Positions 3,466 through 36,924 of a stretch of 64,000 bases of DNA are shown in pieces (position 1 is the stretch's first letter; every line of letters starts with the position of its first letter). The position numbers and the translations under genes were made by a program. Origin of the DNA: Bacteroidales bacterium (GTDB lineage Bacteria > Bacteroidota > Bacteroidia > Bacteroidales > Muribaculaceae); assembly GCA_910575615.1 (NCBI GenBank), contig CAJTEX010000015.1, positions 1 to 64,000 of the forward strand, given 5' to 3'. The notes below the pieces were generated by a model. It was given only the letters and a program-made list of their open reading frames with translations. It was not told the DNA's origin and ran no database searches.

Positions 3466-3484
3466 GCTGACAATTTGCTGACAA
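3466..3484 (+). repeat. Island C right-end repeat pair (candidate recombinase arm sites)
   Basis: gctgacaa occurs at 3466-3473 and 3477-3484, start to start 11 bp. The first copy begins 74 bp before the core site at 3540. Islands A and B have an equivalent pair at nearly the same distance. Confidence 0.5.
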
Positions 3485-3502
3485 AAATTGGCATGAAAAA
3501 AC

Positions 3503-3530
3503 CGTAAGCGTTGAAAATCAATTACTTACG
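3503..3530. terminator. Hairpin next to the left core site
   Basis: cgtaag (3503-3508) pairs with cttacg (3525-3530), with a further ttg/caa pairing inside. It stands directly before the core copy at 3540. The position matches the stronger hairpins at 21030 and 36862, which would terminate leftward tRNA transcription. Confidence 0.45.
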
Positions 3531-3539
3531 ATTGATATT

Positions 3540-3555
3540 GGTGCCCAGAACAGGA
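3540..3555. other. Attachment-site core copy 1 (island A left end)
   Basis: ggtgcccagaacagga is identical to the 3' end of tRNA-Leu at 36909-36924, read on the plus strand. It is adjacent to the integrase gene at 3788 and to integrase-proximal repeats at 3702-3724. This marks the junction between island C (or host flank) and island A. Confidence 0.8.
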
Positions 3556-3701
3556 ACACGAATATTAGATTGTAATGGACTAACATAGAATTTGGTTAAA
3601 TTCTTGATATTATCGTATAATGCTGTATTTAACTATATTAGCGCAATTTGGATGATTTTGAATAATTCGGAAAATCTATCCTGATTTAGTTAAATCCAAT
3701 C

Positions 3702-3724
3702 TTGGTTGACACGGCGTTGACACG
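3702..3724 (+). repeat. Island A left-end repeat pair (candidate integrase arm sites)
   Basis: gttgacac occurs at 3705-3712 and 3716-3723, 11 bp apart. A partial inverted copy (atgtcaac) lies at 3738-3745 between the integrase promoter elements. The 23-bp segment repeats at 20995-21017 with a single mismatch. Tyrosine recombinases of this type use such arm sites around the core; binding here is inferred. Confidence 0.6.
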
Positions 3725-3731
3725 AAAGCTA

Positions 3732-3762
3732 TTGTGTATGTCAACCGTATTGACTAATTTTG
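3732..3762 (+). promoter_or_regulatory. Promoter of the island A integrase
   Basis: A TTG at 3732-3734 and TAATTTTG at 3755-3762, 20 bp apart, fit the Bacteroidetes -33/-7 pattern. The ATG follows 26 bp later. The inverted arm-like motif lies between the two boxes, so the integrase could repress its own promoter. Confidence 0.6.
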
Positions 3763-3787
3763 TGTTGGAAATAATAATCACTCTCCT

Positions 3788-5143
3788 ATGGCAACACTCA
3801 CTCGTAATATCACGAAGGGTACCAACCCTATGGGGAAGGCGGAGCTTCTGCTGCGTCTTTCCGTATCGCGTAATCTTGTAGTCCGCCTGAAGACTGGACT
3901 TTGGATGGATCCCTCGCGCTTTGACAAGGGGATATTCTCTTTACCCAAAGACCCGACGGCACGTGCCGAGATTCGCGCGATAGAGGACAGGCTTATCGAC
4001 ATTGAACGATTTCTTATCAATCTCTGCGAGAAAACGCCGTCAGACACGCTGACAAAGGATTTCGTTGTTGCTCAGTATGATTTGTTTCTGCATCCAAAAC
4101 CGGAAAAGCAGAAACGGCAACCGCGTAATCCAAATTTCTTCGACATATTTGAGGATTACATCGAAAAGAAAAATATTTCGGAATGGCGCATCAAGCATCT
4201 GCGAGTCCTGAAACGCGCATTAATGCGATATGAGCTGTATGTCCGCGCAAACGGTCGCGGCCGCTATAAAATCAAGCTTGATGATTTTACAGTCGATGAT
4301 GTCAACAGTTTCGAGAAGTTCCTGCGCTCAGAGCATGAAATCCACGAGAAATATCCGGAAATATATAAGGCTGTTCCGGCAGACACACATACAACGAGAA
4401 AGAAACCGAAGCCCCAACCCAAAGGCGACAATACCATCATCGGTTTGTTTGGTCTGATGCGGGCTTTCTATCGCTGGTGCCGAGACCAAGAGTTGACAAC
4501 CAATGACCCGTTTGCAAAATACAACGGCAAGACAACCGAAGTGTATGGCACCCCCTATTACATTACTCTTGAAGAACGCGACAGGATTGCAGACTACGAC
4601 CTTTCTGCGAATCCGTCATTAGAGGCACAACGCGATATTTTCATCTTTCAGTGCCTCATCGGATGCCGCGTGTCTGACCTCATGGCAATGACTCCGGCAA
4701 GTATCATCAATGGAGCCATCGAGTATATGCCTCAGAAGACAAAGGGCGAACGTCCGCAGGTTGTCAGAGTGCCTCTAAATGCAAGAGCCCAAGCCCTCGT
4801 TGCCAAGTATGCCGGACGCGATGACTTGAACGGCAAACTGTTTCCCTTCATCTGTTCGCAGAAATATAACGTGGCCATCAAAAAGATATTCACGACCTGC
4901 GGAGTCAATCGCATAGTCACCGTTCTCAATCCTACAACCGGGGCAGAAGAGAAACGTCCGCTGAATGAAATAGCCAGCAGCCACTTGGCACGACGCACCT
5001 TCATCGGGAACCTCTACAAGAAAGTCAAAGACCCTAATCTCGTCGGCTCACTCAGCGGCCACAAGGAAGGCAGCAAAGCCTTCGCCCGCTACCGAGACAT
5101 TGATGAGGACATGAAGAAAGAACTTGTCAACCTCCTCGACTGA
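3788..5143 (+). CDS. Tyrosine recombinase (island A integrase)
   Basis: This 451-residue phage-type integrase would catalyse excision and insertion of island A at the tRNA-Leu core. It has an N-terminal arm-binding region, a SAM-like core-binding domain (about 110-240) and a catalytic domain. Catalytic residues are visible: Arg in IGCRVSDLMAM, His and Arg in SSHLARRTF, His in LSGHKEG, and the tyrosine nucleophile in FARYRDID near residue 435. The start at 3788 is preceded by a good -7 box. It lies about 230 bp from the core copy at 3540, as expected for an island integrase. Confidence 0.92.
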   Translation: MATLTRNITKGTNPMGKAELLLRLSVSRNLVVRLKTGLWMDPSRFDKGIFSLPKDPTARAEIRAIEDRLIDIERFLINLCEKTPSDTLTKDFVVAQYDLFLHPKPEKQKRQPRNPNFFDIFEDYIEKKNISEWRIKHLRVLKRALMRYELYVRANGRGRYKIKLDDFTVDDVNSFEKFLRSEHEIHEKYPEIYKAVPADTHTTRKKPKPQPKGDNTIIGLFGLMRAFYRWCRDQELTTNDPFAKYNGKTTEVYGTPYYITLEERDRIADYDLSANPSLEAQRDIFIFQCLIGCRVSDLMAMTPASIINGAIEYMPQKTKGERPQVVRVPLNARAQALVAKYAGRDDLNGKLFPFICSQKYNVAIKKIFTTCGVNRIVTVLNPTTGAEEKRPLNEIASSHLARRTFIGNLYKKVKDPNLVGSLSGHKEGSKAFARYRDIDEDMKKELVNLLD

Positions 5144-5171
5144 TTTTTCTTTTCCTCAGCCCCTATACATC

Positions 5172-5215
5172 GGTTTAGTTCATCGGGCATATATAGTGCC
5201 CGAACTGAACTAACC
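5172..5215. terminator. Bidirectional terminator between integrase and UvrD-like helicase
   Basis: A two-part hairpin: tcgggca (5183-5189) with tgcccga (5197-5203), and an outer arm ggtttagttca (5172-5182) with tgaactaacc (5206-5215). It separates two convergent genes. Confidence 0.6.
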
Positions 5216-5220
5216 TTATG

Positions 5221-7059
5221 TTATATGTTTATGATTTCGTTTTCATCAAACCATCCCTTATCAATAGCCTCTTTCTTCACATTTTCAGGGGCATATGTAT
5301 ACATCACGACTGCTAGTGCATTCTTTGCCCTAGTACATGTGACATAAAACAATCTTTGAGTACGTTCGATAGAAGTTTCTTTACCTTCCATTAAATTCCT
5401 TTTGTCTGCATCTGATAAACCTTTTACTCCAAAAAGTTTGTCATAACTAAATAGAAAACCCTTTGCCTCAGAATCATCAATAATAACCATTACACGATCA
5501 AATTCAAGACCTTTAACGCCTTGGTGTGTATCGAATTGTGACTTCTGATTTACATAATCATCATATTTATGTATCATAGAAATTGGCAAATCCATTACTT
5601 CTACCCAAGCGCGAATGTCCTCTGCTACGGTTTCATCTAACTCGGATAATTTCAGTGTATACGCTTGCTTGACAACATCCGGCACTTTTAACAATTGAGA
5701 TTTTATGATTTCTTCTGTAACTACTCGTATGGTTTTATTTCCATTTACAAAATCTGTCAAGCGTGTAGCTGCATCTCTACATCTTAAATAGAGTTCGTAT
5801 GGCTTGTCCTTATTCTGTCTGCTCAATAGTGGTGAGTATTCTTTCAATATTTCTAAGGCTTGTCGTCCCCCGTCATTTATTGATTTTACTATGGGAAGAA
5901 CTTCTTTAGTAAAAAATTCTAATTCAGGTACAGTACCTTGAAGAAAGGTCATCTGGTATTTTGAGACTTTGCTAAATGGTGCAAAAAATTCAGCAAATCC
6001 TAATCTTCGAACAGCCATCATATGTTCCAGAGTTAGAGACTTGACATCGGTGTCTTCTCCGACCCATTTTTCATCATTTGTTTGCTCGAACATGATATGT
6101 CTAATATTTTTCTCCACCTCATCTTTGTTTTGGTCATCACGTTGTTTGACGATAAATAGCCTTACAAAGCCATCATTAGCATCTTCTCGTGGATTCTGTT
6201 CAGCATGAATATCTATATCCTTGCCAATACTGTTGGCCAAACGAATTATTCGTCGACCACTGCGATAGTTCATTCTTTTAATTGGTTTTTCCCATCCGGC
6301 AGGAATTATGCTTTCGATATTTTCCTTGCCATCAGTATAGATGCGTTGCTTCTGATCACCAAGTAAACCCAATGTGAAAATACTAGCGAAGTTTTTTTGA
6401 ATTTCAAAGAAAGCATCGACTAGTTCCTTTTTTGTATCTTGGCTTTCGTCAATCAGAAGAATCGGATATTTTTGGGCAATGATTCTTTGTAACAATGGTA
6501 TGTCCTTAATCATCTGGGCAGAGATTTTAATAACTTCTGCGTGTTTTAATGCATTATATTCTGGATTACTTCCATTGGGATTATATATAAAACGCTCAAT
6601 GGTCTTTGCTTTTTCGAATCGTTCATTTAGGTCATTAAGTTTTTCTTTATTAGATAGATATGTTTTAGTCGTCTTGTTGTTCGTGTCATTTAACTTCTTC
6701 CTTAAAGTTGTCATTTCTTCACTGAGATGTTGACAATATAAAGATCTAATATCCGTTTGATAATGTTTGATAACATCCCAAACAAAACTGTGAATCGTTG
6801 AGATGCGGAAAATCGAACTGTAATCCAAACGATTTATTATTTCATCGGTCGCGGCATTAGTATATGTAATGACTGCTACATTTTTGCCCTGTAATAACAA
6901 ATCTTTTCCAATGCGATCGCGAATTTTTCTCAGTAATAGAACTAAAGAGAACGTCTTTCCAGAGCCAGCCCCAGCAAAAAGAAAGAAGCTTTTGCGAGGA
7001 GTTGAAAAAATACATTTCTCTAGCATTTCATCTACTTGCGTATCGATACTATTTCCCAT
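5221..7059 (-). CDS. gajB: UvrD/Rep-like helicase, Gabija GajB-like
   Basis: This 612-residue superfamily 1A helicase shows motif I AGAGSGKTFSL, motif II LLIDESQDT, motif V QGVKGLEFDRVMV and motif VI RLFYVTCTRAKNALA. In Gabija systems GajB is a UvrD-like partner of the OLD-type nuclease GajA and helps degrade or nick phage DNA. Its gene here overlaps the end of the upstream OLD-nuclease gene by 11 bp, which fits translational coupling and the known gajA-gajB order. The protein is longer than the roughly 500 residues of the studied GajB. It is the last gene of a five-gene minus-strand operon. A generic repair helicase is the alternative, but the neighbourhood argues for defence. Confidence 0.8.
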   Translation of the reverse strand: MGNSIDTQVDEMLEKCIFSTPRKSFFLFAGAGSGKTFSLVLLLRKIRDRIGKDLLLQGKNVAVITYTNAATDEIINRLDYSSIFRISTIHSFVWDVIKHYQTDIRSLYCQHLSEEMTTLRKKLNDTNNKTTKTYLSNKEKLNDLNERFEKAKTIERFIYNPNGSNPEYNALKHAEVIKISAQMIKDIPLLQRIIAQKYPILLIDESQDTKKELVDAFFEIQKNFASIFTLGLLGDQKQRIYTDGKENIESIIPAGWEKPIKRMNYRSGRRIIRLANSIGKDIDIHAEQNPREDANDGFVRLFIVKQRDDQNKDEVEKNIRHIMFEQTNDEKWVGEDTDVKSLTLEHMMAVRRLGFAEFFAPFSKVSKYQMTFLQGTVPELEFFTKEVLPIVKSINDGGRQALEILKEYSPLLSRQNKDKPYELYLRCRDAATRLTDFVNGNKTIRVVTEEIIKSQLLKVPDVVKQAYTLKLSELDETVAEDIRAWVEVMDLPISMIHKYDDYVNQKSQFDTHQGVKGLEFDRVMVIIDDSEAKGFLFSYDKLFGVKGLSDADKRNLMEGKETSIERTQRLFYVTCTRAKNALAVVMYTYAPENVKKEAIDKGWFDENEIINI

Positions 7060-9253
7060 TTTTGTTCTCTTTAGAATCCAAATAAGACTTTATCCAATCA
7101 AGTCCTTCCTGGATATACTTTGGAGGGATTAGATTGTCAATTAATTTGTCGTTATATAGCAGAGAAATGGCAAAGTCAGCTTTTGAGAAACCTCCTTTAA
7201 TTTCCAACTTCTTAAATATTTTTTCTTGAAGTTCTTTAGCGGAATTACTATTCTTCAGTAGATTTGCTACGGTAGTAATTGTTCCCATTTTTTTGAGTCC
7301 TTCTGTACGGAATAATTCAAGGTTCGTAAAGATCAATGCGTCCTCAAACGTATAAGGACATATTTCTGTTTCGGTATCATCATCTTTATTCCACTTGACC
7401 TTCACTGGAGTTTGGTAGGCAATCCTTACATTATTGATCAATTTCTCTTTATCATCAAGCACTAACAAATCGTCAATCTGCTCCTTTTCTGGAAGCCAAT
7501 CTAATATTGAAGGATTTCCTGTGTTATATCCACTCCCTTTAGCTGTAATTACAGCCGGATGGGTCTCTTTCCCATCGACTCCTATTTTTGTTTCAGTCGC
7601 ATCTATATCAGTCACAATTAGAGTCGCGATTCCAAGTCGTTCAATAAGTTTTCGGAACCTATGGGCATGTCGCCCATTCACCTCTATGACTGAAATATAA
7701 TGCGAGTCCATTCCAACTTTCGATAGGAATCCAGGTACAAGTATTTTTTCAGCGGGACCTTCAACTAATATTGTCGCATCAGAGAAGAATATATCGTAAT
7801 GAGTCAGACGAATATATCGTGTTACAAATTGTTGCGTTTCCTTATCGGGCCCAAATGTACTTGAAAGATTAACTACTTTTGAAATAGGAAGTTTATCGTC
7901 AGCATCCATAACTCGTCTGAAATAACGCATACAGTTTAAATCAAGTTCGTTTACAACATGATTTGAATGGGTGCTTAATACAAGTTGTGTACATAGCCAA
8001 GGATTATCCTCAATGAGTTTATTGTTGCATAGGGCTTCAAAAGCCTTTTTTACAAATACTTGTTGAGCCTGAGCGTGAAGATGCGCCTCAGGTTCCTCTA
8101 CAAATACCACATGAATTGGCTCAATTTTCTCATCTTCGCTTAATTCTCTTAACCATCGATCTCGAAAATCTATAAGTTTTAGATAAATCGAGATAAGATT
8201 TCTATATCCTAGACCATTATATTTTTCGGGAAGTGTAAGACCTTCCAGTCCGTGTATGGCAAATTGGACTGCTGAATCATGCTTGATGGCTTCTTCTATC
8301 TGAATCTTGCTACTTATTCTTATCATTGGATTTTGAAATCCAGGATAATTGATATTCTTCAATTCACCAACAGGATCCTTAAAAGTCCTTCTTAGTTTTT
8401 CGTCATATGTCTCATTGGCCTTTGTTATACCTCCAATAAGAACCAGGTCATCCGAAGTTAAATCATCTTCTTCGAGACATCTGCTTTTATAGTATTGTTG
8501 GAACTGCCGTGATAACGTATCAATATCATTGTCAGTTTGTCCTTCTGGATCAGAAAAATCGCGTGATGCTAGAATCGTATCAACTCTGATTAGCTTATCT
8601 AATGGATTGAATCCAAGTTCATCATCGGGAGTACTCTGAACTCTTTCTTCATCATCTGGATCAAGGGCATAGTCTATGATATAATATTTAACATCAAAGT
8701 ATTTTCTAAGATTTGCCCCTTTCCCTAAGAAATCACATAAATTTCTTGGATATAATTCCGGAGAGTACGCTTTCGCGTACTCCTCAGTCGACTCTAAAAA
8801 ATTAGCTTTTATCTTGGCTTTTTTGTAATCGGTGTATAACGTTGTAACATCCTTGGGTACATATTGTCCACGTACTCCTACTACTTTACCGTCCCATGTG
8901 CTAAGTGAAGGTATCAGGTGGTTTACACGATACTGTTCTCCATCGTTCACTTGTATCCAAACATCCATTGATGGCACAATGTCATCCCATTTATGAGAGT
9001 CTAATAATGCCTCATCAACAGTGTCATTTTCCAACCAATTTTCGCCTATTGCATCAATTAATGCCCAATTAGTGGCTGTAAATTCCTTAAGTGTGAATTT
9101 TTCAGTATTTTTAAGGAACCAAACAATAGCACTAATGGCAGAAGTTTTTCCACTGTTATTAGCACCAACAAATACCGTCTCTCTTTCTCCAAAGTCTATA
9201 TGGCAATTCTTTAATTTACGGAAATTCCGGATATGAACTGATTGTATTCTCAT
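7049..9253 (-). CDS. gajA: OLD-family ATP-dependent endonuclease, Gabija GajA-like
   Basis: This 734-residue protein has an ABC-type ATPase domain followed by a TOPRIM nuclease domain, the class 2 OLD layout. Walker A reads GANNSGKTS near residue 30, Walker B VVFVEEPEAHLHAQ, and the switch region LSTHSNHVV. The TOPRIM glutamate is in ILVEGPAEKIL and the DxD in LIVTDIDAT. GajA cuts DNA and is restrained by nucleotides until phage replication depletes them; that role is family knowledge. It overlaps the preceding methyltransferase gene by 4 bp (ATGA type) and the helicase gene by 11 bp. The linkage to a UvrD helicase supports Gabija over a stand-alone OLD protein. Confidence 0.82.
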   Translation of the reverse strand: MRIQSVHIRNFRKLKNCHIDFGERETVFVGANNSGKTSAISAIVWFLKNTEKFTLKEFTATNWALIDAIGENWLENDTVDEALLDSHKWDDIVPSMDVWIQVNDGEQYRVNHLIPSLSTWDGKVVGVRGQYVPKDVTTLYTDYKKAKIKANFLESTEEYAKAYSPELYPRNLCDFLGKGANLRKYFDVKYYIIDYALDPDDEERVQSTPDDELGFNPLDKLIRVDTILASRDFSDPEGQTDNDIDTLSRQFQQYYKSRCLEEDDLTSDDLVLIGGITKANETYDEKLRRTFKDPVGELKNINYPGFQNPMIRISSKIQIEEAIKHDSAVQFAIHGLEGLTLPEKYNGLGYRNLISIYLKLIDFRDRWLRELSEDEKIEPIHVVFVEEPEAHLHAQAQQVFVKKAFEALCNNKLIEDNPWLCTQLVLSTHSNHVVNELDLNCMRYFRRVMDADDKLPISKVVNLSSTFGPDKETQQFVTRYIRLTHYDIFFSDATILVEGPAEKILVPGFLSKVGMDSHYISVIEVNGRHAHRFRKLIERLGIATLIVTDIDATETKIGVDGKETHPAVITAKGSGYNTGNPSILDWLPEKEQIDDLLVLDDKEKLINNVRIAYQTPVKVKWNKDDDTETEICPYTFEDALIFTNLELFRTEGLKKMGTITTVANLLKNSNSAKELQEKIFKKLEIKGGFSKADFAISLLYNDKLIDNLIPPKYIQEGLDWIKSYLDSKENKNGK

Positions 9254-10863
9254 ATGTTAGTTCTCCCTTTCTTTAGTCTTCTGGAAGACAATTTTTCCCA
9301 GATGGTACGCCCTAATTTAACTTCTTCTGACGAATAACCGCATTTCTCAATGAGTATTTTTTGGTCTGTAAAATCAAGAATTTTGTCAATAGATTCTCCT
9401 TTACGAAGCATTGCATCTATCTCATCAAAAATCATATCATTGTCTTCATTATAAGGTAGATATATGGACTCTACCTCGCTGGGCATCAGTTCCAATACGC
9501 CACCTCCAAAGTTCCTGCCTACTATTTCGGCATGAGCAAAAGAGAGTGAATTATAGTAGCTCGCTACAAATGCCTTGTGATTAGTGCCTAGCTTAAAGAA
9601 TACACGATGCATTGTATCTGTGGTATAAGCTTGAGCACTGTTTAATACAAGACGAGGGAATAGATGATTTCTTCGTAGGAACAGAGCGTCTGAGAGTTTA
9701 ACCGAAGGGATTACAAACCAGTCATCGCGGATGCTGGTCTTGTATCCTTTATTAATCCCATCTGCCTCGCCGGAGGCTATATATTCTTTTGCGCCGTCAT
9801 GATTAGCAATTTCCTCTTTTGATCTAAACACAAGTAAGTGTGCACGACTACCTTTATTCACATTTTTCTGCCAGTCGTGCGCTGTGAAATCAAGACTTGA
9901 CACTTGCACGCTTCTTCCGACCATGGGTTTTGCAAAATCATCTAATCCATAGAAATCAACAATCGATTTCGGTACTGTAAAATACTGATTGGCACCTGTC
10001 GTAATGCCGACTTCTACAGAAGCATAGTCTCCAATATGGTGTTCCGCATTTGATGACAAATTCTCAATGAAAGAGATTTCCTCTTCTGATAGAAAATAAT
10101 ATGACCACTTATCGGAATCCTTATTGACTGTTTTTGTGTTGAAATGCAGTCCTCCATTAAGCAGGAATTGTAAAGCTGGAATATCCTTGACATCAACATG
10201 GTCAATATTATGTCTTCCACTTCCATCTTTTTCACAAAGCAGCAAAACCACTTCTTGTTGAATGTCATCAAATACAAGCTGCTCAAATGAAATGATATTC
10301 ACTTGGTTAAAGGCCTTGATAAGATAATTTCTAAGTTGCTTGGCATAGGATACTTGTAGTATATCTGCTGGCACAACAAAAGCAATTTTTCCTCGCTCCT
10401 TCAACAATAAAGAGCTACCTACTATGAAGGTTACCCAAGCATTTGTCAATTTTGAGTACTTCAATTTAGCCTTCTTAAAAATATCAGCAGCTAAAGATTG
10501 CAGCGATTGGTCATAATATTGGTAACGAATAAACGGAGGATTCCCAACCACAAGATCAAAACGTTGATTTGTCGTCAAGCAAAATTCATGAAAATCACGA
10601 TTTTGAATCTCTGCGTCAGGAAGATCAATCGCCAATGCCTTATTAGCCTCTTCCTCATCTAATTCTATGCCAAGAAATGATGTAAAATCCATATTGAGAT
10701 TTTGCATCTGCTCAAAGAATACACCATCTCCACAACTGGGTTCCAAAATATCAGGATGCGTCAAGCCTGACATTCCCCATTGTAACAGGAATGCGGCTAT
10801 CTGCGGAGGTGTATAATATCCCCCTCTCAATTTCTGCTCGGTTGCATTTTCAAATAGTTGCAT
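9250..10863 (-). CDS. N6-adenine DNA methyltransferase (TaqI/Eco57I-like class)
   Basis: This 537-residue gamma-class adenine methyltransferase shows the N-terminal GGYYTPPQIA segment, the AdoMet motif ILEPSCGDGVF and the catalytic NPPFIRYQYY. The C-terminal half would hold the target-recognition region. No nuclease motif is evident. It starts 14 bp inside the end of the type IIG gene and ends overlapping the OLD nuclease gene, so all would be made from one message. It may methylate the second strand or half-site of the type IIG target, since some such enzymes need a partner methyltransferase. It could instead supply self-marking for the whole cluster. Confidence 0.85.
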   Translation of the reverse strand: MQLFENATEQKLRGGYYTPPQIAAFLLQWGMSGLTHPDILEPSCGDGVFFEQMQNLNMDFTSFLGIELDEEEANKALAIDLPDAEIQNRDFHEFCLTTNQRFDLVVGNPPFIRYQYYDQSLQSLAADIFKKAKLKYSKLTNAWVTFIVGSSLLLKERGKIAFVVPADILQVSYAKQLRNYLIKAFNQVNIISFEQLVFDDIQQEVVLLLCEKDGSGRHNIDHVDVKDIPALQFLLNGGLHFNTKTVNKDSDKWSYYFLSEEEISFIENLSSNAEHHIGDYASVEVGITTGANQYFTVPKSIVDFYGLDDFAKPMVGRSVQVSSLDFTAHDWQKNVNKGSRAHLLVFRSKEEIANHDGAKEYIASGEADGINKGYKTSIRDDWFVIPSVKLSDALFLRRNHLFPRLVLNSAQAYTTDTMHRVFFKLGTNHKAFVASYYNSLSFAHAEIVGRNFGGGVLELMPSEVESIYLPYNEDNDMIFDEIDAMLRKGESIDKILDFTDQKILIEKCGYSSEEVKLGRTIWEKLSSRRLKKGRTNI

Positions 10864-13846: not shown

Positions 13847-14126
13847 ATTCAGCTATACTTTCTGAAACAATAGATAAAACATCATTTGCTGATGACTCAC
13901 CAGCGATTACATCATATACTTTGTCTGCTAACCATAATTGTCGTAATTCGCTTTCATCTATATTGTAGTATTTGGCCAATATGGGTATATGCTCTTCTTT
14001 TGCAAATCTTTCTCCTCGCTCAATGCGGCTATACATAGGTGTATCTATGTCGAGCAGTGCCGCTATCTGTCTTTGTAGATAGTGATTCTCTTCTCTCAAC
14101 GACTTTAATTTCTGTGCGAAATACAT
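13821..14126 (-). CDS. XRE-type HTH controller protein
   Basis: This 101-residue protein has an N-terminal Cro/C1-type helix-turn-helix (about 5-60: FAQKLKSLREEN, then RQIAALLDIDTPMYSRIERG). It resembles restriction-modification controller (C) proteins, which time expression of the restriction gene. I chose the ATG at 14126; a longer reading from a TTG at 14150 exists but would run through the operator. The stop overlaps the type IIG start by 26 bp. A perfect inverted repeat at 14143-14161 covers the -7 box and is a likely binding site for autoregulation. Confidence 0.8.
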   Translation of the reverse strand: MYFAQKLKSLREENHYLQRQIAALLDIDTPMYSRIERGERFAKEEHIPILAKYYNIDESELRQLWLADKVYDVIAGESSANDVLSIVSESIAEYGKENKSC

Positions 14127-14142
14127 TGTTGTCAAATTTTGA

Positions 14143-26676: not shown

Positions 26677-26682
26677 TTCAAT

Positions 26683-28506: not shown

Positions 28507-29639
28507 AACTTGGTGACATATGTACTATTACATCAAGTAAACGTATATTCGCTTCGGATTATGTTGATGTCGGTATTCCTTTTTATAGGTCTAAGGAAAT
28601 AATTGAAAAAAATCGTGGAGAAGAAGTATCCTCTCCATTATATATCAGCGAAGAAAAATTTGATGTAATAAAGAGTAAATTTGGAGTGCCAAGCAAAGAT
28701 GATATTTTATTGACCTCTGTCGGGACTATTGGTATTCCATATCAAGTTCAAAGTTCAGACAAATTTTATTTTAAGGATGGAAATTTGACTTGGCTTAAAG
28801 ATTTTACGAAATCTATAAACCCTCGTTTTATTTATTACTTTATATCAAATTCCTTTTTCAGAACCTATCTTAATTCAATATGTATAGGGTCATCACAGGC
28901 AGCTTTAACTATTGAAAAATTAAAGAATATTGAGATTTCTGTTCCAACAAAAAATATTCAAAACAGAGTAGCTGATATTCTTACCCTTTTTGATGACCTT
29001 ATTACACTCAACAATCGTCGCATTGCTATTTTGGAAGAAATGGCTGTGCGTACATATCGTGAGTGGTTTGTGTTTTTCCGTTTCCCCGGCCACGAATCCA
29101 CCGAGTTTGTCAATGGTTTACCTAAAGGATGGGAATATCGCTCTGTTACAGATATTTTGCAGATTCTTTATGGCAAAGACCATAAGTTGGTTTATGATGG
29201 ATTGTTTCCTATATATGGCTCCGGGGGAATAATGCGTTATGGAAACGAATATTTATATGAAGGAGAATCTGTTTTAATACCTAGAAAAGGTACTCTTAAT
29301 AACATAATATTAGCGGATGGCAAGTTTTGGTGTATTGATACAATGTTTTATTCAATACCTAAAATTCCTAAAATCTGCAAACTTGCTTTTTTTCAACTTA
29401 AAGCTTTTGATATGGAAGTGTTTAATTCTGGGACAGCTCTTCCGAGCATGACTATTAAAATTCTATCATGTCTTAAATTGCTTGTTCCGGATGAAAAATA
29501 CAGAACGCTTTTTGAGCAATCCATATCAGATATTTTTAATGAGGTAACACACTTTAAGAAGTTAAATGCTACGCTTCAGCAGATGCGCGACCGCTTGCTG
29601 CCTCAACTTATGAGTGGCCAGCTTGAAGTAGCACCTTAA
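28503..29639 (+). CDS. hsdS: Type I restriction-modification specificity subunit
   Basis: A 378-residue HsdS with two target-recognition domains (about 1-140 and 205-340) separated by conserved helical spacers (QNRVADILTLFDDLITLNNR, then LEEMAVRTYREWF; final LQQMRDRLLPQLMSGQLEV). The TRDs set the bipartite target; their sequence is AT-rich and unlike the flanks, as usual for exchanged TRDs. No inverted partner hsdS gene for phase variation is seen nearby. Confidence 0.93.
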   Translation: MKLGDICTITSSKRIFASDYVDVGIPFYRSKEIIEKNRGEEVSSPLYISEEKFDVIKSKFGVPSKDDILLTSVGTIGIPYQVQSSDKFYFKDGNLTWLKDFTKSINPRFIYYFISNSFFRTYLNSICIGSSQAALTIEKLKNIEISVPTKNIQNRVADILTLFDDLITLNNRRIAILEEMAVRTYREWFVFFRFPGHESTEFVNGLPKGWEYRSVTDILQILYGKDHKLVYDGLFPIYGSGGIMRYGNEYLYEGESVLIPRKGTLNNIILADGKFWCIDTMFYSIPKIPKICKLAFFQLKAFDMEVFNSGTALPSMTIKILSCLKLLVPDEKYRTLFEQSISDIFNEVTHFKKLNATLQQMRDRLLPQLMSGQLEVAP

Positions 29640-29652
29640 ATCTTTGTAGGCA

Positions 29653-32600
29653 ATGAGATACTTTATTAAGGAAGATGATATAGAGCGAGAACTCATTGAT
29701 GTTTGCCTCAATGAATTGGGCTACAACAATCATTTCAATTGCTATGTGACCGACCATTTACATCGCAGCTCGGAGCGCGGTGTGCTTAACCTCGACGTAC
29801 TCCGCCGCGAGGTCAAGCGCATAAACGCATCGGCCACCGACCGCCTGCAAGGCTTCGATGATGCAGATGTCAATACCGCAATATCAGCACTCAATGATAT
29901 AGACCTGCACTCCGACCCTGCTTCGCTCAATGCCACTATTCTTACACGGATTATGAGCGGCTTTAAGATGCCGGTGCTTCAATCGAATGGCAAGCGTGAG
30001 CCTCGTACCGTGCAATTCATTGATTGGGAGAATCCTACAAGCAACCAATTTGACGTTGTCAACCAACTTTGGATTCAAGGCGATGTTTACCGTCTGCGAC
30101 CTGATGTCATTATATATGTCAATGGACTACCGCTCATAACTATTGAGTTAAAAGACAGCAACATTCCTGTCAAGGAGGCTTTCTCCAACAACTTGGCAAG
30201 ATACAAAGATGCCATTCCTCAACTTATGGCCTATAACGCTGTGCTCGTTGCGAGCAATGGGTTGCATACCCGAGTAGGTGCGACTTATGCCGACTGGGCT
30301 TTTTTCGCTCCTTGGTTCAGAGCATCTGAGAAGGATAAAATCAACAAAGATGAAATCGAAAGCGAAAAAATCAGTCTTGATGTAATGGCTCGCTCGTTGT
30401 TGAAAAAGGAAAATTTGCTTGATTACGTTCACAATTATATCCTTTTCTACAACGGCACCAAAAAGATATGTGCCAAAAACCATCAATTCCTCGGAGTGAG
30501 CAGAGCCGTCGAGCGATATAAATATCTCTGTGGCTCACCTCGCGAAGAAGACCGCGGAAAGATGGGTGTGTTCTGGCATACACAGGGAAGCGGCAAAAGT
30601 TTTTCAATGGTGTATCTTGCACGCTTGCTTAAAAACCGTTTTCCGGGTAATTTCACGTTCCTTATCATAACCGACCGCGAAGACCTCGACAGTCAGATTT
30701 ACCGCAACTTCTTACATAGCGGCTTTATGAGTGCCGACGAAGACTGCCAACCTAAAACAAGCGACCGTCTCCGCACAATGCTTGAAAAGGAAGACCACCG
30801 CATACTTTTTACGCTTATTCAGAAATTCCGTTACGATAAACGCAAGAAATATCCCATTCTCTCTGAACGAGATGATATCATTGTTTTTATCGACGAGGCT
30901 CACCGCACACAATATAAATCGCTTGCCGAAAATCTCAGGGCAGGTCTGCCTAACGCCAAGTATATGGCGTTTACCGGCACACCGCTTTTTGGAAGTAAAA
31001 AACTCACCAATAAATGGTTTGGCGAAACGGTCAGCGAGTATAATTTCAGTCAGGCTGTGCAAGATGAGGCCACCGTGCGCCTCACTTATCGCAACCACCT
31101 GCTTGAGGTGCAGAATGAAAATCCGACCTTCAGTGCCGACTTTATCAATATTCTTCAAGATGAAGAACTTGATGATGACAGTCGCCAACGTCTTGAACGC
31201 GAGTATGCCAAAGAACTTGAAATACTTCGCCGTCCGGCGCGTCTTAACAAGATAGCCGATGATATAGTAAATCATATCATCAACCGTGGCTATCTCGGCA
31301 AGGCAATGGTGGTTAGTGTTGACCGCTTTACCGCCGTCAGAATGTATGACCTTGTCACCGCTAAATGGCAGCAAAAGATTGCCAAAATCAACCACGAACT
31401 GATGTCGCTCAATCCTACATCTGCGGAGTATCAGACCAAACTGAAAATCCGTGAGTGGATGCGCTCTACCGATATGGCTGTCGTAATAAGCGAAAGCCAA
31501 GGCGATGATGAACGCTTTGCTGCCGAAGGTCTAAACCTTCGTCCTCATCGTGAGCGTATGAACGATGTTAACGAAGAAGGACAGGAATTGCAAGACCTGT
31601 TCCGAGATGAAAACAACCCTCTACGGATTGTTTTTGTATGCTCCATGTGGCTCACCGGCTTCGACTCTCCAATGGTGTCAACTCTTTATATGGATAAGCC
31701 TCTTGCAGGGCAAAATCTTATGCAGACTATTGCGCGTGCCAATCGTCGATGCTCGACACTTGACGTGCTTGGACGAGAAAAATCGTGCGGTCAGATTATC
31801 TCTTACTGCAATATCTTCGGCAGTCTGAAAAAAGCTTTTGCCACCTATGGAGATGCGCAAGGAGGCGGTGACGATGCGGATACCGATAATCCCGGAACTG
31901 ACACCCCCGCAGGCAATACTCCTGCGGCTATGACACTTGATGAGCTTTACACACATCTTCGTGCTGCCATTTCTCAGTGCGTGGAATGGTGTCGAGGTCT
32001 TGGTGTCGATTTGCAGAAAATTCTCGACCTCAATAAAGCTTTCAACCAGATTTCTCTCTTTGACCAATACGCTAACATTCTCATAAATCCTGTTGAGCGC
32101 AAGGCTCAATTTGCTGTGTTTGATAACACTATTTCACAGATTTATGATGAATGTTTGCCCGATATTATCAGCATCAAAGAGGAATTTGTAATGGCCGAGG
32201 TAATCCATTATCTCAGACAGGTTATGGATAACTCAGTTGACCGAGGCAATCTTGATTCAGCTCGCCGCCGCATCAAGGATTTGCTCAATCAGAGCATTGT
32301 GCTGAAAGGTGACGGCCCGGCTGAAAATAGAGAGTACACTATCAAGGAGTTTGGAGAATTTGACCTTAGCCGTCTTGATATTGACAAACTCCGGGAGCAA
32401 TACAGCGAATCTAAGTGCAAAGCACTTGAAATCGCTGAACTTGAAGATTTCATCTCGCAAAAACTCGATACAATGCTCAATCAAAACAGCGAGCGCCGTA
32501 CTTTTGCTGAGGAATTTCAACGCATTATCGACCGTTATAATGCCGGAAGCACAGAATCTGAGCAAGCGATTCGCGAACTCATAGACTTGCTTAGCCGTAT

Positions 32601-32949
32601 GACGGCAGAGCAACGCCGCGCTTCTGAGGAGGGGCTTACAGAGGAAGAACTCGAAGTGTTCGATATACTCCGCAAGGAAAATCTCTCAAAAGATGATACC
32701 ATAAAGGTCAAAGCTGCCGCCCGTGATTTGCTTTCAAAATTGAAATCAAATCAAGACCAGCTGTTTACCACTGATTGGTATAAAGATAGTTCTAAGAAAA
32801 GCTCCTTCATCCTGTTCGTTAGAGATACTCTTGACAGGACGTTGCCGGACTGCTACGACCGGACAACATTCAGAGAGAAAAATGAGCTCCTATGTAATCA
32901 ATTCATTGTCCGTGCATCTCAAAATGGCGGATACCTTTTCGCAAGTTAA
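29653..32949 (+). CDS. hsdR: Type I restriction enzyme R subunit
   Basis: A 1098-residue HsdR. The N-terminal nuclease domain shows RPDVIIYV and LITIELKD (PD-ExK). The translocase domains have Walker A TQGSGKSFSMV, the DEAH box FIDEAHRTQ, and a later helicase motif QTIARANRR. The C-terminal part is helical, for binding the M2S core. A Gly/Asp/Pro-rich loop (about 736-757) is inserted before the C-terminal domain. It starts 13 bp after hsdS. It would cut unmodified DNA far from the target after ATP-driven translocation. Confidence 0.94.
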   Translation: MRYFIKEDDIERELIDVCLNELGYNNHFNCYVTDHLHRSSERGVLNLDVLRREVKRINASATDRLQGFDDADVNTAISALNDIDLHSDPASLNATILTRIMSGFKMPVLQSNGKREPRTVQFIDWENPTSNQFDVVNQLWIQGDVYRLRPDVIIYVNGLPLITIELKDSNIPVKEAFSNNLARYKDAIPQLMAYNAVLVASNGLHTRVGATYADWAFFAPWFRASEKDKINKDEIESEKISLDVMARSLLKKENLLDYVHNYILFYNGTKKICAKNHQFLGVSRAVERYKYLCGSPREEDRGKMGVFWHTQGSGKSFSMVYLARLLKNRFPGNFTFLIITDREDLDSQIYRNFLHSGFMSADEDCQPKTSDRLRTMLEKEDHRILFTLIQKFRYDKRKKYPILSERDDIIVFIDEAHRTQYKSLAENLRAGLPNAKYMAFTGTPLFGSKKLTNKWFGETVSEYNFSQAVQDEATVRLTYRNHLLEVQNENPTFSADFINILQDEELDDDSRQRLEREYAKELEILRRPARLNKIADDIVNHIINRGYLGKAMVVSVDRFTAVRMYDLVTAKWQQKIAKINHELMSLNPTSAEYQTKLKIREWMRSTDMAVVISESQGDDERFAAEGLNLRPHRERMNDVNEEGQELQDLFRDENNPLRIVFVCSMWLTGFDSPMVSTLYMDKPLAGQNLMQTIARANRRCSTLDVLGREKSCGQIISYCNIFGSLKKAFATYGDAQGGGDDADTDNPGTDTPAGNTPAAMTLDELYTHLRAAISQCVEWCRGLGVDLQKILDLNKAFNQISLFDQYANILINPVERKAQFAVFDNTISQIYDECLPDIISIKEEFVMAEVIHYLRQVMDNSVDRGNLDSARRRIKDLLNQSIVLKGDGPAENREYTIKEFGEFDLSRLDIDKLREQYSESKCKALEIAELEDFISQKLDTMLNQNSERRTFAEEFQRIIDRYNAGSTESEQAIRELIDLLSRMTAEQRRASEEGLTEEELEVFDILRKENLSKDDTIKVKAAARDLLSKLKSNQDQLFTTDWYKDSSKKSSFILFVRDTLDRTLPDCYDRTTFREKNELLCNQFIVRASQNGGYLFAS

Positions 32950-32973
32950 TACATTAATAACGGAAGAAACCTA

Positions 32974-35679
32974 ATGAAAACAGAGTGGATTAAAGCCATA
33001 ATAACTCAACTTGCTGCATTATTTTTGTTCATAGCATTAAATGCAGAAATAATGGGTTGGTTTGATGAATATATTTTACCAACTCTTTCAAGGATGAACG
33101 AAGGATCTATCTCATCAATAATTTTCGGTGTGATGTGTTTATCTACGATAGTCTTTTGGGTTAATAGATTTCGGTATCATTATTATGTAAAGCCCATATA
33201 TGTCTTGAGTAGTATCAGCCTATCATCTGTTTACTGGTTTTACAGACTCTTTACAGATGAATATATTGTAACAGAATCAGATATTTTTCATATAGGTTTT
33301 TCAGATGTCATTTTTGGTGGTTTATTCCTATTTGGTATAATCTCTCTTTTAGTTGATTTCATTGAATTAGATGAGCCCACTTCAAACGAATCACAAAATG
33401 AAGATAAGGCTCTTTTGTTAGAGGATAAGCCTATTACTAAAAGAGAGCAAGATAGACTTGGATTCGGTGATGAAGTCGATACGTTGTATCAACGTATTAT
33501 AGAACGAGAGACAACATCAGCATTAAGCATTGGCATAAATGCAAGATGGGGAGATGGGAAGTCCTCATTTATTAATCTTATGGAGGAAAAATTCCTTCAG
33601 AATAAAGATCTGTTTATCGTAATTCGATTTAATCCTCGCTATTCAACCAATGACAAAATTCAGTCTGCGTTCTTTGAGGAATTATACTCTGAATTAAGTA
33701 AATATGATTCAAGATTTAAGAGTTCATTCAATGATTATCTTAGGGTAATTGATGTAATGACTGATAACAAATACTTATCGGCGTTGTTTCAGTCATCCAC
33801 GTTATTTAACCGAGTCAATGAAAAATCAAGGATTAATGGAGCAATAAGGCGTTTAAAAAAACGAGTTATTGTTATTATCGAAGATTTGGATCGTTTGACG
33901 GGAGATGAAATTGTTGAAGTCTTCAAATTAATTGATGGTAATGCGGCCTTCGATAATCTAATCTTTATCAGTGCTTATGACAAGGGGCGTATAAATTCAC
34001 TTTTAGAATCAAAGGACGAATGGGCTGCATTCTCCGATAAATTCTTCACATGGGAACGCCCTCTTCCATTGCGATCATCACAACTATTATTAGATTTCCT
34101 AATTCCAAACTTAACAAGCGGTCTTTCATTTAATGATGAGGAGATAGAAGATGTCAAGAGCTCAATAATAGCAAACTCCTCATTCTTTACATTCTATCTT
34201 AAAAATTTAAGAGATGTCAAGCGGTATATTAACTTAGTTAAACCATCTCTCAAGAGAATCTATAAAGAAGTAAAACTAAGGGATTTCTTGCTTATAGAAT
34301 TAGTTAGATATAGGTATCCAGATGAGCATAGAGTTTTGTATGAACAGAATTCCCATAAAGACAGCGAAACAAATTTTGAACGAAAAATAACCATTGACGG
34401 ACTTGAAGACCAATATAACTCAAAGGATATTCTGAAAGTTTTATTCCCTGCTGATGGGAACAATTCCTATCGATCCATTAATTCGGTAGGTGGCTTCTCG
34501 ATATACTTTCAAGAGCATTTATTTGAGCGTATCAGCAATGAAAAATTAAGCTCAATGTTAAAAAAGGAGCAAGATTATAGAGCGATTATCAATGAAGTAT
34601 TAAACAATCAAGGGTGGAATCAGCTTAGAGAGTATCTGGGATCTCTCAATACCCTTGCTTTGCCGAGTTGGGAAGCTGTAGTTAGATATATTGATATTTA
34701 TATATATCTTAGTGCACATTATAGCGAAACGTTATACTCAATTCTCAATGTAGGTATTCTCCTTGAAAAAAAGGTTGTAGAGAGACTATGTATAAAATTG
34801 GGGATTTCAATAGATGATTATAAATCTACACTATATGACAAGCTGATAGGCGGTAATAATGAGTATCCCTATGAAATAGTTAAGCAACAACTATGGGCGT
34901 ATAAGAGTGGTGAATTAAGACATGAACTGGTTTTCTCTGAAGATCAATTGCTAATTATACTTAAAAAATCACTTAAGAATTTGATTAAAAATAATCCCGG
35001 TTATACCCCATTGCATAATAATATTCTTAGAGCTTGTATCGCATTTATTGACCCAACGAGTAAAAAGGTTACCCTTGATGTTGAAGCATGTGAAATGGTC
35101 TTGCATTCGATTGAAAGTAACCCGAATGAATATATCAATGATTTTGTTTATTTGGCAGGTGTTTCGTCTTCTCCTGATTGGAATAGTATTACCTGTGATC
35201 CATTCTGGAGGCAAATATTCCTAAGTGCAGAAAATTTAAAGGACTTTATTTTCAATGAAAAGCTGGATGCCTTACCCAATATCAAGAGAGTGCGTAACTT
35301 TTGGTCAATTTACGAAGCGAACAGCTATGAACCCATCGAATTCCAAGAGCAGGGCCCTGTTCAAGCAAAGATTGATTCAGACCTTGTAGCCGAGCGTAAA
35401 CTTTTAGACGAGATTTTAGAGATTGAAACTCTTGTAAATTCAATAGCTATTTCACCGGATAGTTTTGTGGCTGCATACAAAGTTCTCAAAGACTCTTTAG
35501 AACGTCTGTCTTCCAATACTCTTTACATAAAGAAAAATGGTGACGTAAGAAAATCCATTCTGAAAAAAAGAGACGAATTAAAACTTTATAGAGAATCTGA
35601 ACCCTTGAAAATTACACCAGAGATTATTGATAAAATTAAATCTTATGAAGATTATCTTGATGAACGTTTAAGACACTGA
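32974..35679 (+). CDS. Membrane-anchored KAP-family P-loop NTPase
   Basis: A 901-residue protein. Four probable membrane helices fill the N-terminal 130 residues (near 8-28, 45-63, 75-93 and 110-128). A KAP NTPase domain follows, with Walker A INARWGDGKSSF and Walker B VIVIIEDLDRL. The C-terminal 450 residues are helical without a recognised domain. KAP ATPases are membrane-associated, and several occur in defence loci. The gene starts 25 bp after hsdR, so it is probably in the same transcript. A role as a membrane effector linked to the RM system is inference. Confidence 0.82.
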   Translation: MKTEWIKAIITQLAALFLFIALNAEIMGWFDEYILPTLSRMNEGSISSIIFGVMCLSTIVFWVNRFRYHYYVKPIYVLSSISLSSVYWFYRLFTDEYIVTESDIFHIGFSDVIFGGLFLFGIISLLVDFIELDEPTSNESQNEDKALLLEDKPITKREQDRLGFGDEVDTLYQRIIERETTSALSIGINARWGDGKSSFINLMEEKFLQNKDLFIVIRFNPRYSTNDKIQSAFFEELYSELSKYDSRFKSSFNDYLRVIDVMTDNKYLSALFQSSTLFNRVNEKSRINGAIRRLKKRVIVIIEDLDRLTGDEIVEVFKLIDGNAAFDNLIFISAYDKGRINSLLESKDEWAAFSDKFFTWERPLPLRSSQLLLDFLIPNLTSGLSFNDEEIEDVKSSIIANSSFFTFYLKNLRDVKRYINLVKPSLKRIYKEVKLRDFLLIELVRYRYPDEHRVLYEQNSHKDSETNFERKITIDGLEDQYNSKDILKVLFPADGNNSYRSINSVGGFSIYFQEHLFERISNEKLSSMLKKEQDYRAIINEVLNNQGWNQLREYLGSLNTLALPSWEAVVRYIDIYIYLSAHYSETLYSILNVGILLEKKVVERLCIKLGISIDDYKSTLYDKLIGGNNEYPYEIVKQQLWAYKSGELRHELVFSEDQLLIILKKSLKNLIKNNPGYTPLHNNILRACIAFIDPTSKKVTLDVEACEMVLHSIESNPNEYINDFVYLAGVSSSPDWNSITCDPFWRQIFLSAENLKDFIFNEKLDALPNIKRVRNFWSIYEANSYEPIEFQEQGPVQAKIDSDLVAERKLLDEILEIETLVNSIAISPDSFVAAYKVLKDSLERLSSNTLYIKKNGDVRKSILKKRDELKLYRESEPLKITPEIIDKIKSYEDYLDERLRH

Positions 35680-35765
35680 ATATGTAGGATTATTTATGGA
35701 TAGAGGACAGATAACACTCTTTAAACGCAGGAAGGCGAAACGAAGATATACATTTTTTAGACGAT

Positions 35766-36770
35766 ATGGATTCAGACAATAATATAATCATATATCAGGG
35801 TGAGGACGGCGAGACTCGCATTGAGGTGAAGTTTACTGGGGAGACGGTTTGGCTGTCTCAGCAGCAGCTTTGCGAGTTGTATCAGACAAGTAAGGCTAAT
35901 GTCAGCGAGCATATCAAACATATATTTGAGGACGGTGAGCTTGATGAGGATTCAGTTGTTCGGAAATTCCGAACAACTGCCGCCGATGGTAAGTCGTACA
36001 ACGTGACCTACTACAATCTCGACATGATTATTTCGTTGGGGTATAGGATTCGGTCGGTTATCGCTACGCATTTCCGCAGGTGGGCTACTGAGCGGTTGAA
36101 GGAGTATATCATCAAGGGGTTCACAATGGACGATGAACGGTTGAAAGGAAATGGCGGTGGTGCTTACTGGCGTGAGCTGCTTGACCGTATTCGTGACATC
36201 CGTTCATCGGAGAAGGTGATGTACCGTCAGGTACTCGACCTTTATGCTACTGCCGTGGATTATGACCCTCGCAGTGACATCTCAGTGGAGTTCTTTAAGA
36301 TTGTGCAGAACAAGTTGCACTTTGCCGCTCATGGTCATACTGCCGCCGAAGTTATCTTTCATCGGGCCAATGCTGAGTCTCCGATGATGGGGCTTACTTC
36401 TTTCAAGGGCGACCATCCGACCTTGCGCGATGCAAAGATTGCCAAGAACTATCTCAGCGAGGATGAGTTGAAGATTCTGAACAATCTTGTGTCGGGATAC
36501 TTTGACTTCGCCGAGATTCAGGCGATGAAACGACGCCCGATGTATATGAGCGACTATGTGCAGCAGCTCGACAATATTCTGTCTTCGACAGGCGAGGCTT
36601 TACTCAACGGCCCCGGCACAGTCAGCCATCAGCAAGCTATGGAAAAAGCCGAGCAGGAATATCGTCTGTTCCAAGTGCGCGAACTATCCCCCGTGGAACG
36701 AGCATATCTCGATACTATAAAAGCCCTCAATGCAAAAGCGAAAGGGAAAGGCAATAGTTCCGAAAAATAA
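35766..36770 (+). CDS. rhuM: RhuM-family protein
   Basis: A 334-residue RhuM-family protein, previously named after a Salmonella virulence locus. It has the typical opening (VWLSQQQLCELYQTSKANVS, a helix-turn-helix-like segment), the NLDMIISLGYRIRS core and the C-terminal LTSFKGDHP and DYVQQLDNIL segments. RhuM genes often lie inside type I RM loci; their role is unknown. The gene is more GC-rich than the KAP gene before it, which suggests separate acquisition. It is the last gene of island B. Confidence 0.88.
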   Translation: MDSDNNIIIYQGEDGETRIEVKFTGETVWLSQQQLCELYQTSKANVSEHIKHIFEDGELDEDSVVRKFRTTAADGKSYNVTYYNLDMIISLGYRIRSVIATHFRRWATERLKEYIIKGFTMDDERLKGNGGGAYWRELLDRIRDIRSSEKVMYRQVLDLYATAVDYDPRSDISVEFFKIVQNKLHFAAHGHTAAEVIFHRANAESPMMGLTSFKGDHPTLRDAKIAKNYLSEDELKILNNLVSGYFDFAEIQAMKRRPMYMSDYVQQLDNILSSTGEALLNGPGTVSHQQAMEKAEQEYRLFQVRELSPVERAYLDTIKALNAKAKGKGNSSEK

Positions 36771-36821
36771 TGGGCGGAGCCGCCTGTTGAGGTTCGAGGG
36801 GAGGGTGAACGGCGGACTTCG

Positions 36822-36852
36822 GTTGACACCATTTGCACGTAATATGCACGTA
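36822..36852 (+). repeat. Island B right-end repeats
   Basis: tgcacgta occurs at 36834-36841 and 36845-36852, 11 bp apart; the first starts 75 bp before the core at 36909. One gttgacac, the island A motif, lies at 36822-36829. The pair matches the tgcacgta pair at the island B left end (21205, 21217). Confidence 0.6.
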
Positions 36853-36861
36853 GAATAAAAT

Positions 36862-36906
36862 AAAAGCGAGATAACTGTTGATGTTTCAATGAGTTATCTC
36901 GCTTTT
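36862..36906 (-). terminator. Hairpin following tRNA-Leu (island B right end)
   Basis: aaaagcgagataact (36862-36876) pairs over 15 bp with its complement at 36892-36906. In the direction of tRNA transcription (leftward) it comes directly after the tRNA 3' end, and the far arm ends in TTTT. It belongs to island B, so the island supplies the tRNA's present terminator. Confidence 0.7.
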
Positions 36907-36908
36907 GG

Positions 36909-36924
36909 GGTGCCCAGAACAGGA
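36909..36924. other. Attachment-site core copy 3, within tRNA-Leu 3' end
   Basis: ggtgcccagaacagga covers the acceptor 3' strand, discriminator and part of the T arm of tRNA-Leu. Integration here keeps the tRNA sequence intact. This is the original site for the island stack. Confidence 0.82.

Follow-up and report, generated by a model that had tools for sequence, protein, structure and literature searches.

How might the integrases of neighbouring islands recognize the ends of their own elements when all of these islands share one core sequence? This question is raised by the first 64 kb of contig C15 (CAJTEX010000015.1; this whole stretch is hereafter the window) from a Muribaculaceae genome of 3.13 Mb, in which two tandem islands, elements A and B, lie to the left of a tRNA-Leu(CAG) gene and are delimited by three copies of the core GGTGCCCAGAACAG, found by a search of the window at positions 3540, 21072 and 36909. 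No further match to GGTGCCCAGAACAG was found in the 64-kb window at up to two mismatches (0.35 expected). In this locus and its relatives, short repeated words stand in pairs in a near-fixed geometry, the same word occurs at the left and right ends of an element, the word covaries with the N-terminal domain (N-domain) of the integrase, and word and domain are exchanged as a block. We consider it very probable that the repeats are the arm sites of the element's own integrase, that the N-domain reads the word, and that arm pair and N-domain are exchanged together. The relevant features of the window are as follows.

3466–3484 (+): right arm pair of 'element 0', a third element situated to the left of A, with GCTGACAA at 3466 and 3477 (period 11)
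3540–3553 (+): core copy 1, left boundary of element A; the homology of a relative (L384) to A begins at 3539
3705–3723 (+): left arm pair of A, GTTGACAC at 3705 and 3716
3739–3745 (–): inverted copy of the A word, TGTCAAC
3755–3762 (+): TAnnTTTG box of the integrase A promoter
3788–5143 (+): integrase A (Int A), 451 aa, tyrosine recombinase, clade A (PF13102, PF00589)
20998–21016 (+): right arm pair of A, GTTGACAC at 20998 and 21009
21072–21085 (+): core copy 2, the A/B junction (core search)
21205–21224 (+): left arm pair of B, TGCACGTA at 21205 and 21217, period 12
21239–21246 (+): TAnnTTTG box of the integrase B promoter
21256–21272 (–): B word in inverted orientation, twice (TACGTGC at 21256 and 21266)
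21319–22713 (+): integrase B (Int B), 464 aa, clade B, with an arm DNA-binding domain (PF17293, PF13102, PF00589)
36822–36829 (+): lone GTTGACAC (A-type word), 12 bp before the start of the right arm pair of B
36834–36852 (+): right arm pair of B, TGCACGTA at 36834 and 36845
36909–36922 (+): core copy 3, within the 3' end of tRNA-Leu (core search)
36908–36992 (–): tRNA-Leu(CAG), the integration target (tRNA search)

Arm-word pairs at the ends of islands

The first repeats start 74, 74 and 75 bp ahead of cores 1, 2 and 3; these distances had been given by a sequence-only reading of the window and proved correct when the positions were re-checked, as did the order of repeat pair, hairpin and core to the left of all three copies. 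The same reading had noted that the motif recurs at the integrase end of its own element, which is the case for GTTGACAC at 3705/3716 in A and TGCACGTA at 21205/21217 in B. Its spacing of 11 bp applies to the other pairs but not to the left pair of B, which has a period of 12. On the + strand of the window, GTTGACAC (five copies) and TGCACGTA (four copies) are confined to element ends, and GCTGACAA occurs additionally at 4048 and 24526. The flank of core 1 (3466–3539) looks like the right end of element 0, and a near-identical copy of this end lies directly at the tRNA in a relative (L013); a search of the genome of the window for a mate of the GCTGACAA pair, with up to two mismatches allowed, gave only five other places, each with two mismatches. 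The lone A-type word at 36822 may be a relic or represent a third arm position. GTTGACA was also seen within –125 to –75 of 5 of the 20 right ends bearing the B word GCACGTA.

We then compared relatives. The core KGTGYCCAGAACAG is present in at least 152 of 397 genomes of the family; from the matches listed, 164 distinct core flanks were collected, of which 99 lie at the tRNA. An exact direct repeat of at least 8 bp with a period of 8–20 was sought at –95 to –40, excluding the 8 of 164 flanks shorter than 100 bp. In agreement with the expectation that other islands at tRNA-Leu would carry repeat pairs about 75 bp from the core, a repeat was present in 111 of 156 core flanks, compared with 33 of 2230 control windows, and the pairs are therefore not due to chance. 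The period was 11, so that the two repeats stand one turn of the helix apart, in 103 of the 111 repeat-bearing flanks, which were found both on the tRNA side (70/92) and elsewhere (41/64), and the repeat starts clustered at –74 to –78, with one group at –66/–67. On the tRNA side, 13 words were typed with a hand-made list, accounting for 72 of the 99 flanks.

At the integrase end, a pair with a period of 11 or 12 was found for 56 of 66 integrases of clade A, 25 of 28 of clade B and 30 of 30 of a third clade, C. The period was 11 in all 56 pairs of clade A and 12 in 20 of the 25 pairs of clade B. Integrases without a usable start were excluded from this comparison, and of the matches without a locus 20 were fetched and the remainder (many of them partial or double integrases) left out. 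Among lower-scoring relatives of Int A, mostly double integrases, such a repeat was found in 9 of 66, and one of these nine carriers (L329) is a truncated clade A protein. Across the core flanks and integrase ends of relatives, a fixed arm geometry with changing specificity is thus strongly supported. An order-wide search was positive in 17 of 384 genomes and added few new left ends, and the viral contigs contained no relative of Int B and a single one of Int A (L353), which was left out.

Three further observations concern these integrase ends. Two adjacent integrase genes, with proteins starting MKVTAFIRKT and MKVSVYLKK, occur in many Bacteroidales genomes (L049–L078), mostly without the arm-pair plan. 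In the GCCTGTA-type left ends L125 and L127 (–125 and –52 from the integrase start), the word forms a further pair closer to the start codon. In one clade A relative (L039), the integrase end lies beside what appears by eye to be the 3' part of another tRNA, in an orientation opposite to that of the islands in the window.

The 75 bp that follow the arm pair on its downstream side contain a TAnnTTTG box, which we take to be the Bacteroides –7 type promoter consensus, in 84 of 87 left ends, compared with 16 of 87 upstream controls, and inverted word copies (at least 7 of 8 bases matching) are found in 19 of 87 left ends, compared with 6.2 when words were shuffled. A pair just upstream of this box might simply be an operator through which the integrase or another regulator controls the integrase gene, with no role of the repeats in recombination, and in the available passages on KplE1 the intS integrase is autoregulated via arm sites overlapping its promoter (PMC2951348). 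We regard this explanation as very unlikely, however, because the same word is paired at the far end of the element, stands at a near-fixed distance from the core and tracks the integrase N-domain (see below); moreover, use as an operator could be additional to a role in recombination rather than an alternative to it. The left pair of an arm-site system may also let the integrase act on its own promoter, by analogy with KplE1.

The left word was identical to the right word in 21 of 21 elements with both ends on one contig, compared with a mean of 3.4 and a maximum of 12 in a shuffling control; these elements were defined by consecutive found cores or junctions on a single contig, for 7 of the 21 one of the two words was taken manually from the table of integrases, and several span more than 45 kb, where a missed core in between is possible.

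Covariation of the arm word with the integrase N-terminal domain

The sequence-only reading had made its interpretation depend on covariation of repeat type with the integrase N-domain, and this was borne out in three clades. Partial Mantel tests of word against N-domain, given the identity of the catalytic domain (CAT), yielded 0.54 in clade A (n = 56) and 0.73 in clade B (n = 24), with p = 0.001 each; in clade C (n = 30), the value given the core-binding domain (CB) plus CAT was 0.78 (p = 0.001). In the tests of clades A and B, one clade B protein of less than 390 aa (L141) and pairs with a CAT identity of at least 97% were excluded. Clade C is a replicate that was collected, after the idea had been formed on A and B, from the top 30 loci of a search and 7 earlier loci; of its 30 proteins, 7 had been part of the data before.

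Among clade A pairs with a CB+CAT identity of at least 85%, N-domain identity was 0.72–1.0 for the same word (68 pairs) and 0.44–0.52 for different words (19 pairs), without overlap. In clade A, an N-domain identity of at least 70% coincided with the same word in 85 of 85 cases. The corresponding ranges in clade B were 0.83–1.0 (27 pairs) and 0.51–0.67 (29 pairs) without one integrase, L130, the left end of which looks rearranged; with L130 included, the two groups overlap. The fewest word changes required were 8 on the N-domain tree versus 13 on the CB+CAT tree in clade A, and 3 versus 7 in clade B, in a count where single linkage put GAGGACA, GGGGACA and GTGGACA in one state and so hid some changes.

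Crossed identities were also observed. The integrases L132 and L120 are 98% identical in CB+CAT and 53% in the N-domain, L132 and L125 are 96% identical in the N-domain and 88% in CB+CAT, and it is the N-domain that the word follows; this crossed pattern recurs in L104/L108/L291/L299 and L129/L124/L135. Binding to short repeats close to att sites is common among excision factors, and small HTH_17 proteins are encoded at 18455–18766 and 25143–25457 of the window, which would fit binding of the repeats by an element-encoded directionality factor (Xis) instead of the integrase. This seems highly improbable, given that the word tracks the N-domain even where the remaining integrase is 97–99% identical, and that the exchanging domain is the annotated arm-DNA-binding domain in clade B.

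The exchanged tract can be delimited in one pair of integrases, L245 (word GTTGCTTATTGG) and L256 (TTTGGCTACCC). Their identity per 30 bp is 87–100% at –210 to –90, 42–87% from –90 to +210 and 90–100% thereafter, and 89.5% over the next 1 kb downstream of the integrase gene. The right end of the L245 element (L244) is 92% identical over 502 bp to a GGCTACC right end (the left flank of L124, in the genome of L256), and the arm pair differs within this alignment. This GGCTACC right end probably belongs to the element of L256, although the contigs of that genome (G292) are separate. In a further comparison of right ends (L193 and L243), the same two bases are changed in both word copies (GCACGTA/GCCTGTA) and the DNA around them is similar. 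Because the word follows the N-domain between otherwise near-identical integrases, the arm pair and N-domain act as an exchanged cassette; word and domain behave as if swapped together repeatedly between otherwise near-identical islands. Words differing merely by descent of the islands from unrelated lineages, with no exchange of specificity, would be compatible with the separate word sets of clades A, B and C in the tables compared, but it is barely credible in view of crossed identities within clades and of tracts that have almost the same DNA on either side.

If the repeats are arm sites of the element's own integrase, the N-terminal arm-binding domain would read the arm word, and the core-binding and catalytic domains would read the common tRNA-Leu core. 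The excised circle would have the order right arm pair, terminator, core, left arm pair, integrase promoter and N-domain, with arm pairs on both sides of the core as in a lambda-like attP. In this view specificity is modular: the exchanged block consists of the arm pair and the N-domain (codons 1 to about 70–95), with little change in the other parts of the integrase, and the right arm pair carries the matching word.

The domains of the integrases were compared with those of arm-binding tyrosine recombinases of the IntCTnDOT type. The catalytic domain of the phage integrase family was present, and the core-binding SAM-like domain PF13102 was found in Int A, in Int B and in the two clade C proteins that were scanned. 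The N-domain of Int B matches PF17293 (E = 2.2e-8; 34.9 bits, above the cut-off of 22.6), as did those of the clade B members given (8/8). In a structural model of Int A with a mean predicted local distance difference test score (pLDDT) of 81, strands at residues 3–12, 18–27 and 30–40 are followed by a helix at 56–82 (pLDDT of this block 87–93); three strands and then a helix is the known order in lambda-type arm-binding domains. A low-confidence linker at 105–113 coincides with the end of the exchanged part. When the whole model was compared with the PDB, only full-length lambda integrase chains aligned from residue 3 or 4, and most rows spanned residues 113–439 only, barely covering the N-domain; a PDB sequence search gave no match at 1e-3. 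According to the available passages of one source, AB-domain integrases contact arm sites through the N-terminal domain (PMC8138268).

Several observations weigh against an N-domain that reads the arm word. The core-binding domain keeps a weak link to the word given CAT (0.12, p = 0.012 in clade A; 0.25, p = 0.019 in clade B). In clade C, the groups overlap at a CB+CAT identity of at least 80% (same-word minimum 0.73, different-word maximum 0.78), and an N-domain identity of at least 70% went with the same word in 98 of 107 cases there and in 46 of 54 in clade B, where all 8 exceptions involve L130. L104 and L316 share one word, and their N-domains are only 51% identical. Arm-DNA-bind_5 was detected by Pfam in only 1 of 18 clade A members (E = 0.006), the hhalign comparison of clade A and B N-domain profiles was weak (probability 28%), and the fold match of Int A is to the whole model, not to the N-domain alone. 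Among tRNA-side cores, 27 of 99 had no typed arm pair, 6 of them with flanks of at most 35 bp; these 27 flanks do not prove the absence of a pair, because the detection of exact repeats misses degenerate ones. Finally, the joint change of the words at both ends of an element is not explained by arm-site recognition as proposed here.

Terminator-like hairpins and neighbouring islands

Between the right arm pair and the core, each of the three ends in the window has a hairpin, listed with its minimum free energy (MFE) and z score.

3500–3533 (–): terminator-like hairpin, element 0 right end (MFE –11.1, z –3.2)
21030–21066 (–): terminator-like hairpin, element A right end (MFE –23.5, z –7.9)
36862–36906 (–): hairpin and T-rich tail on the tRNA strand, element B (MFE –21.8, z –9.6)

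Across relatives, z was below –2 in 123 of 128 distinct right ends (median –6.3; flanks shorter than 70 bp were excluded from folding). The hairpin begins about 3 nt past the core (median) in the direction of the tRNA and is followed on the tRNA strand by a T-rich tail with 5.95 T in 10 positions, compared with 36% overall, so that a stable hairpin and a T-tract are combined on the transcribed strand as in an intrinsic terminator. The simplest reading is that every island brings an intrinsic terminator for tRNA-Leu: each would have to supply one because the island displaces the native terminator, and the arm–core distance of about 74 bp on the right would reflect the space into which the terminator just fits. 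The hairpin might instead be part of the recombination site, as a folded strand or a bend, since it is also found between arm pair and core at inner junctions without a tRNA (38 inner ends, median z –5.1). This is unlikely, however: the hairpin starts about 3 nt past the core in the tRNA direction, with its T-rich tail on the tRNA strand; that strand has 97 G-U pairs versus 10 A-C mismatches, a count that the folding rules bias towards G-U; and the inner ends are presumably former tRNA-side ends.

If the word sets specificity, do stacked islands avoid sharing one? Under an 8-mer rule, none of 47 junctions had direct neighbours with the same word (4.2 expected, P = 0.010), although this rule came third, after a looser rule and the typed list, and its P is the lowest of three tries. 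With the hand-typed list the result was 0 of 33 (P = 0.028), with the looser longest-common-substring rule 1 of 47 (the A-rich junction L325; P = 0.052), and at up to one mismatch 0 of 47 versus 5.4 expected. The core list contributed 33 of the 47 junctions and the integrase table 14, with some of the junctions lying at other cores (52 before identical repeats were removed), and the test is biased towards difference because draft assemblies may fail on tandem copies with identical ends. Exclusion at the level of the genome was unsupported: same-word right-end pairs within a genome numbered 2 of 40 versus 3.7 expected (P = 0.27), and G292 and G397 each have one word at two ends. In one genome, two tRNA-Leu places (L263/L264; G092:C1:6371 and 586575) have an identical 220-bp island end and tRNA start.

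The sequence-only reading had proposed that co-resident elements at one core would not cross-react. The direct neighbours (0–1 of 47 with the same word) agree with this, but the lack of a significant genome-wide deficit (2/40) and the stray A-type word at the right end of B do not; the absence of cross-reaction is only suggested, as a plausible hypothesis, and different words may lower cross-recombination between stacked islands. It is conceivable, albeit tentative and somewhat doubtful, that the words amount to an incompatibility code, in which an exchangeable arm-word/arm-domain cassette lets otherwise near-identical islands stack at one tRNA gene and not remove each other by recombination. 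Exchange would then occur in the circular form; only there are the right arms, core, left arms and N-domain contiguous (within about 0.7 kb).

Island cargo and known systems

The two islands and their cargo are as follows.

3540–21085: element A, with an integrase, a relaxase and NikA-like protein, a Gabija-like pair and a type IIG restriction system
5221–9253 (–): GajB-like UvrD helicase adjoining a GajA-like OLD/TOPRIM ATPase, a Gabija-type defence pair (element A)
9250–13846 (–): type IIG restriction enzyme-methyltransferase (best model 1106 bits) and Eco57I-type methyltransferase (element A)
14290–15486: relaxase, PF03432 (element A)
15483–15878: NikA-like protein (element A)
21072–36922: element B, with an integrase, a type I restriction system and other defence-like genes
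22734–36770 (+): PDC-S02-like gene, type I restriction (M, S, R), PifA-like KAP NTPase and PDC-S05/RhuM-like gene (element B)

Both stacked islands look like defence islands in their predicted genes. No relaxase match was found among the 8 proteins scanned downstream of the integrase gene of element B. The best named matches of Int A were in Duncaniella muris and Muribaculaceae assemblies. In one relative (L384), 16.5 kb are 98.3% identical to element A, beginning at 3539 (that is, at the core), and a right-end piece (20917–21087, 96.5% identity) stops at the core, with a left neighbour different from that in the window; element A is therefore a mobile unit that ends at the cores on both sides. 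A second relative of A (L386) has 3518–5211 and 14226–20030 in common with it but not the cargo between, and a relative of B (L385) has 21071–25443 and 36791–37000 in common.

In HsdS of type I restriction systems, the target-recognition domain is swapped and the catalytic machinery is kept; unlike in that exchange, the cognate DNA words here travel with the domain at both ends of the element. The islands resemble CTnDOT and NBU1, which the available passages describe as having Bacteroidota integrases of the IntCTnDOT subgroup with arm-binding, core-binding and catalytic domains and arm sites near their ends (PMC8138268). As in NBU1, for which the source consulted in part gives the 3' end of a leucine tRNA as target (PMC10865867), core 3 lies within tRNA-Leu(CAG) (36908–36992). 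The islands here differ in that they stand in tandem, use 13 or more arm words at a single core, and exchange arm domain and word as a cassette.

Some of these features are already known from cluster K mycobacteriophages, where arm words differ at a common site, the 11-bp arms are paired and a terminator separates arm and core: the passages available describe two pairs of 11-bp arm sites around a tmRNA core, a putative terminator between the core and one arm pair, and arm words that vary among relatives (PMC3203893). The same passages name candidate N-terminal residues and state that Tweety and Pixie share the site but not the arm sequences (PMC3203893). Within subcluster K1, the variation that they describe among four phages concerns two residues and a small number of bases, whereas here domains of about 70–95 residues are replaced as a whole in three clades and in tandem arrays; and one arm pair of CrimD is inverted, whereas both are direct here (PMC3203893). 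In KplE1 intS of E. coli, as here, the arm sites at the integrase end overlap or adjoin the integrase promoter, allowing autoregulation, which for the present islands is suggested by position; arm-word diversity or cassette exchange does not appear in the available passages of that source (PMC2951348). Among the matches listed in our literature search, which left subscription literature largely uncovered, there was no report of cassette-like exchange of arm domain and word or of such a tRNA series in Bacteroidota.

Arm-type sites have usually been studied element by element. The present islands form a natural domain-swap series, with many words at one core in three clades and with pairs in which little but the word and the N-domain is different, and they allow a direct test of the code by which tyrosine integrases recognize their arms. 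The calling of island boundaries may become easier where the arm-word pairs of the two ends match, and the islands provide candidate orthogonal integration modules for gut Bacteroidota. Such a system would also offer a way for several defence islands to occupy one tRNA site.
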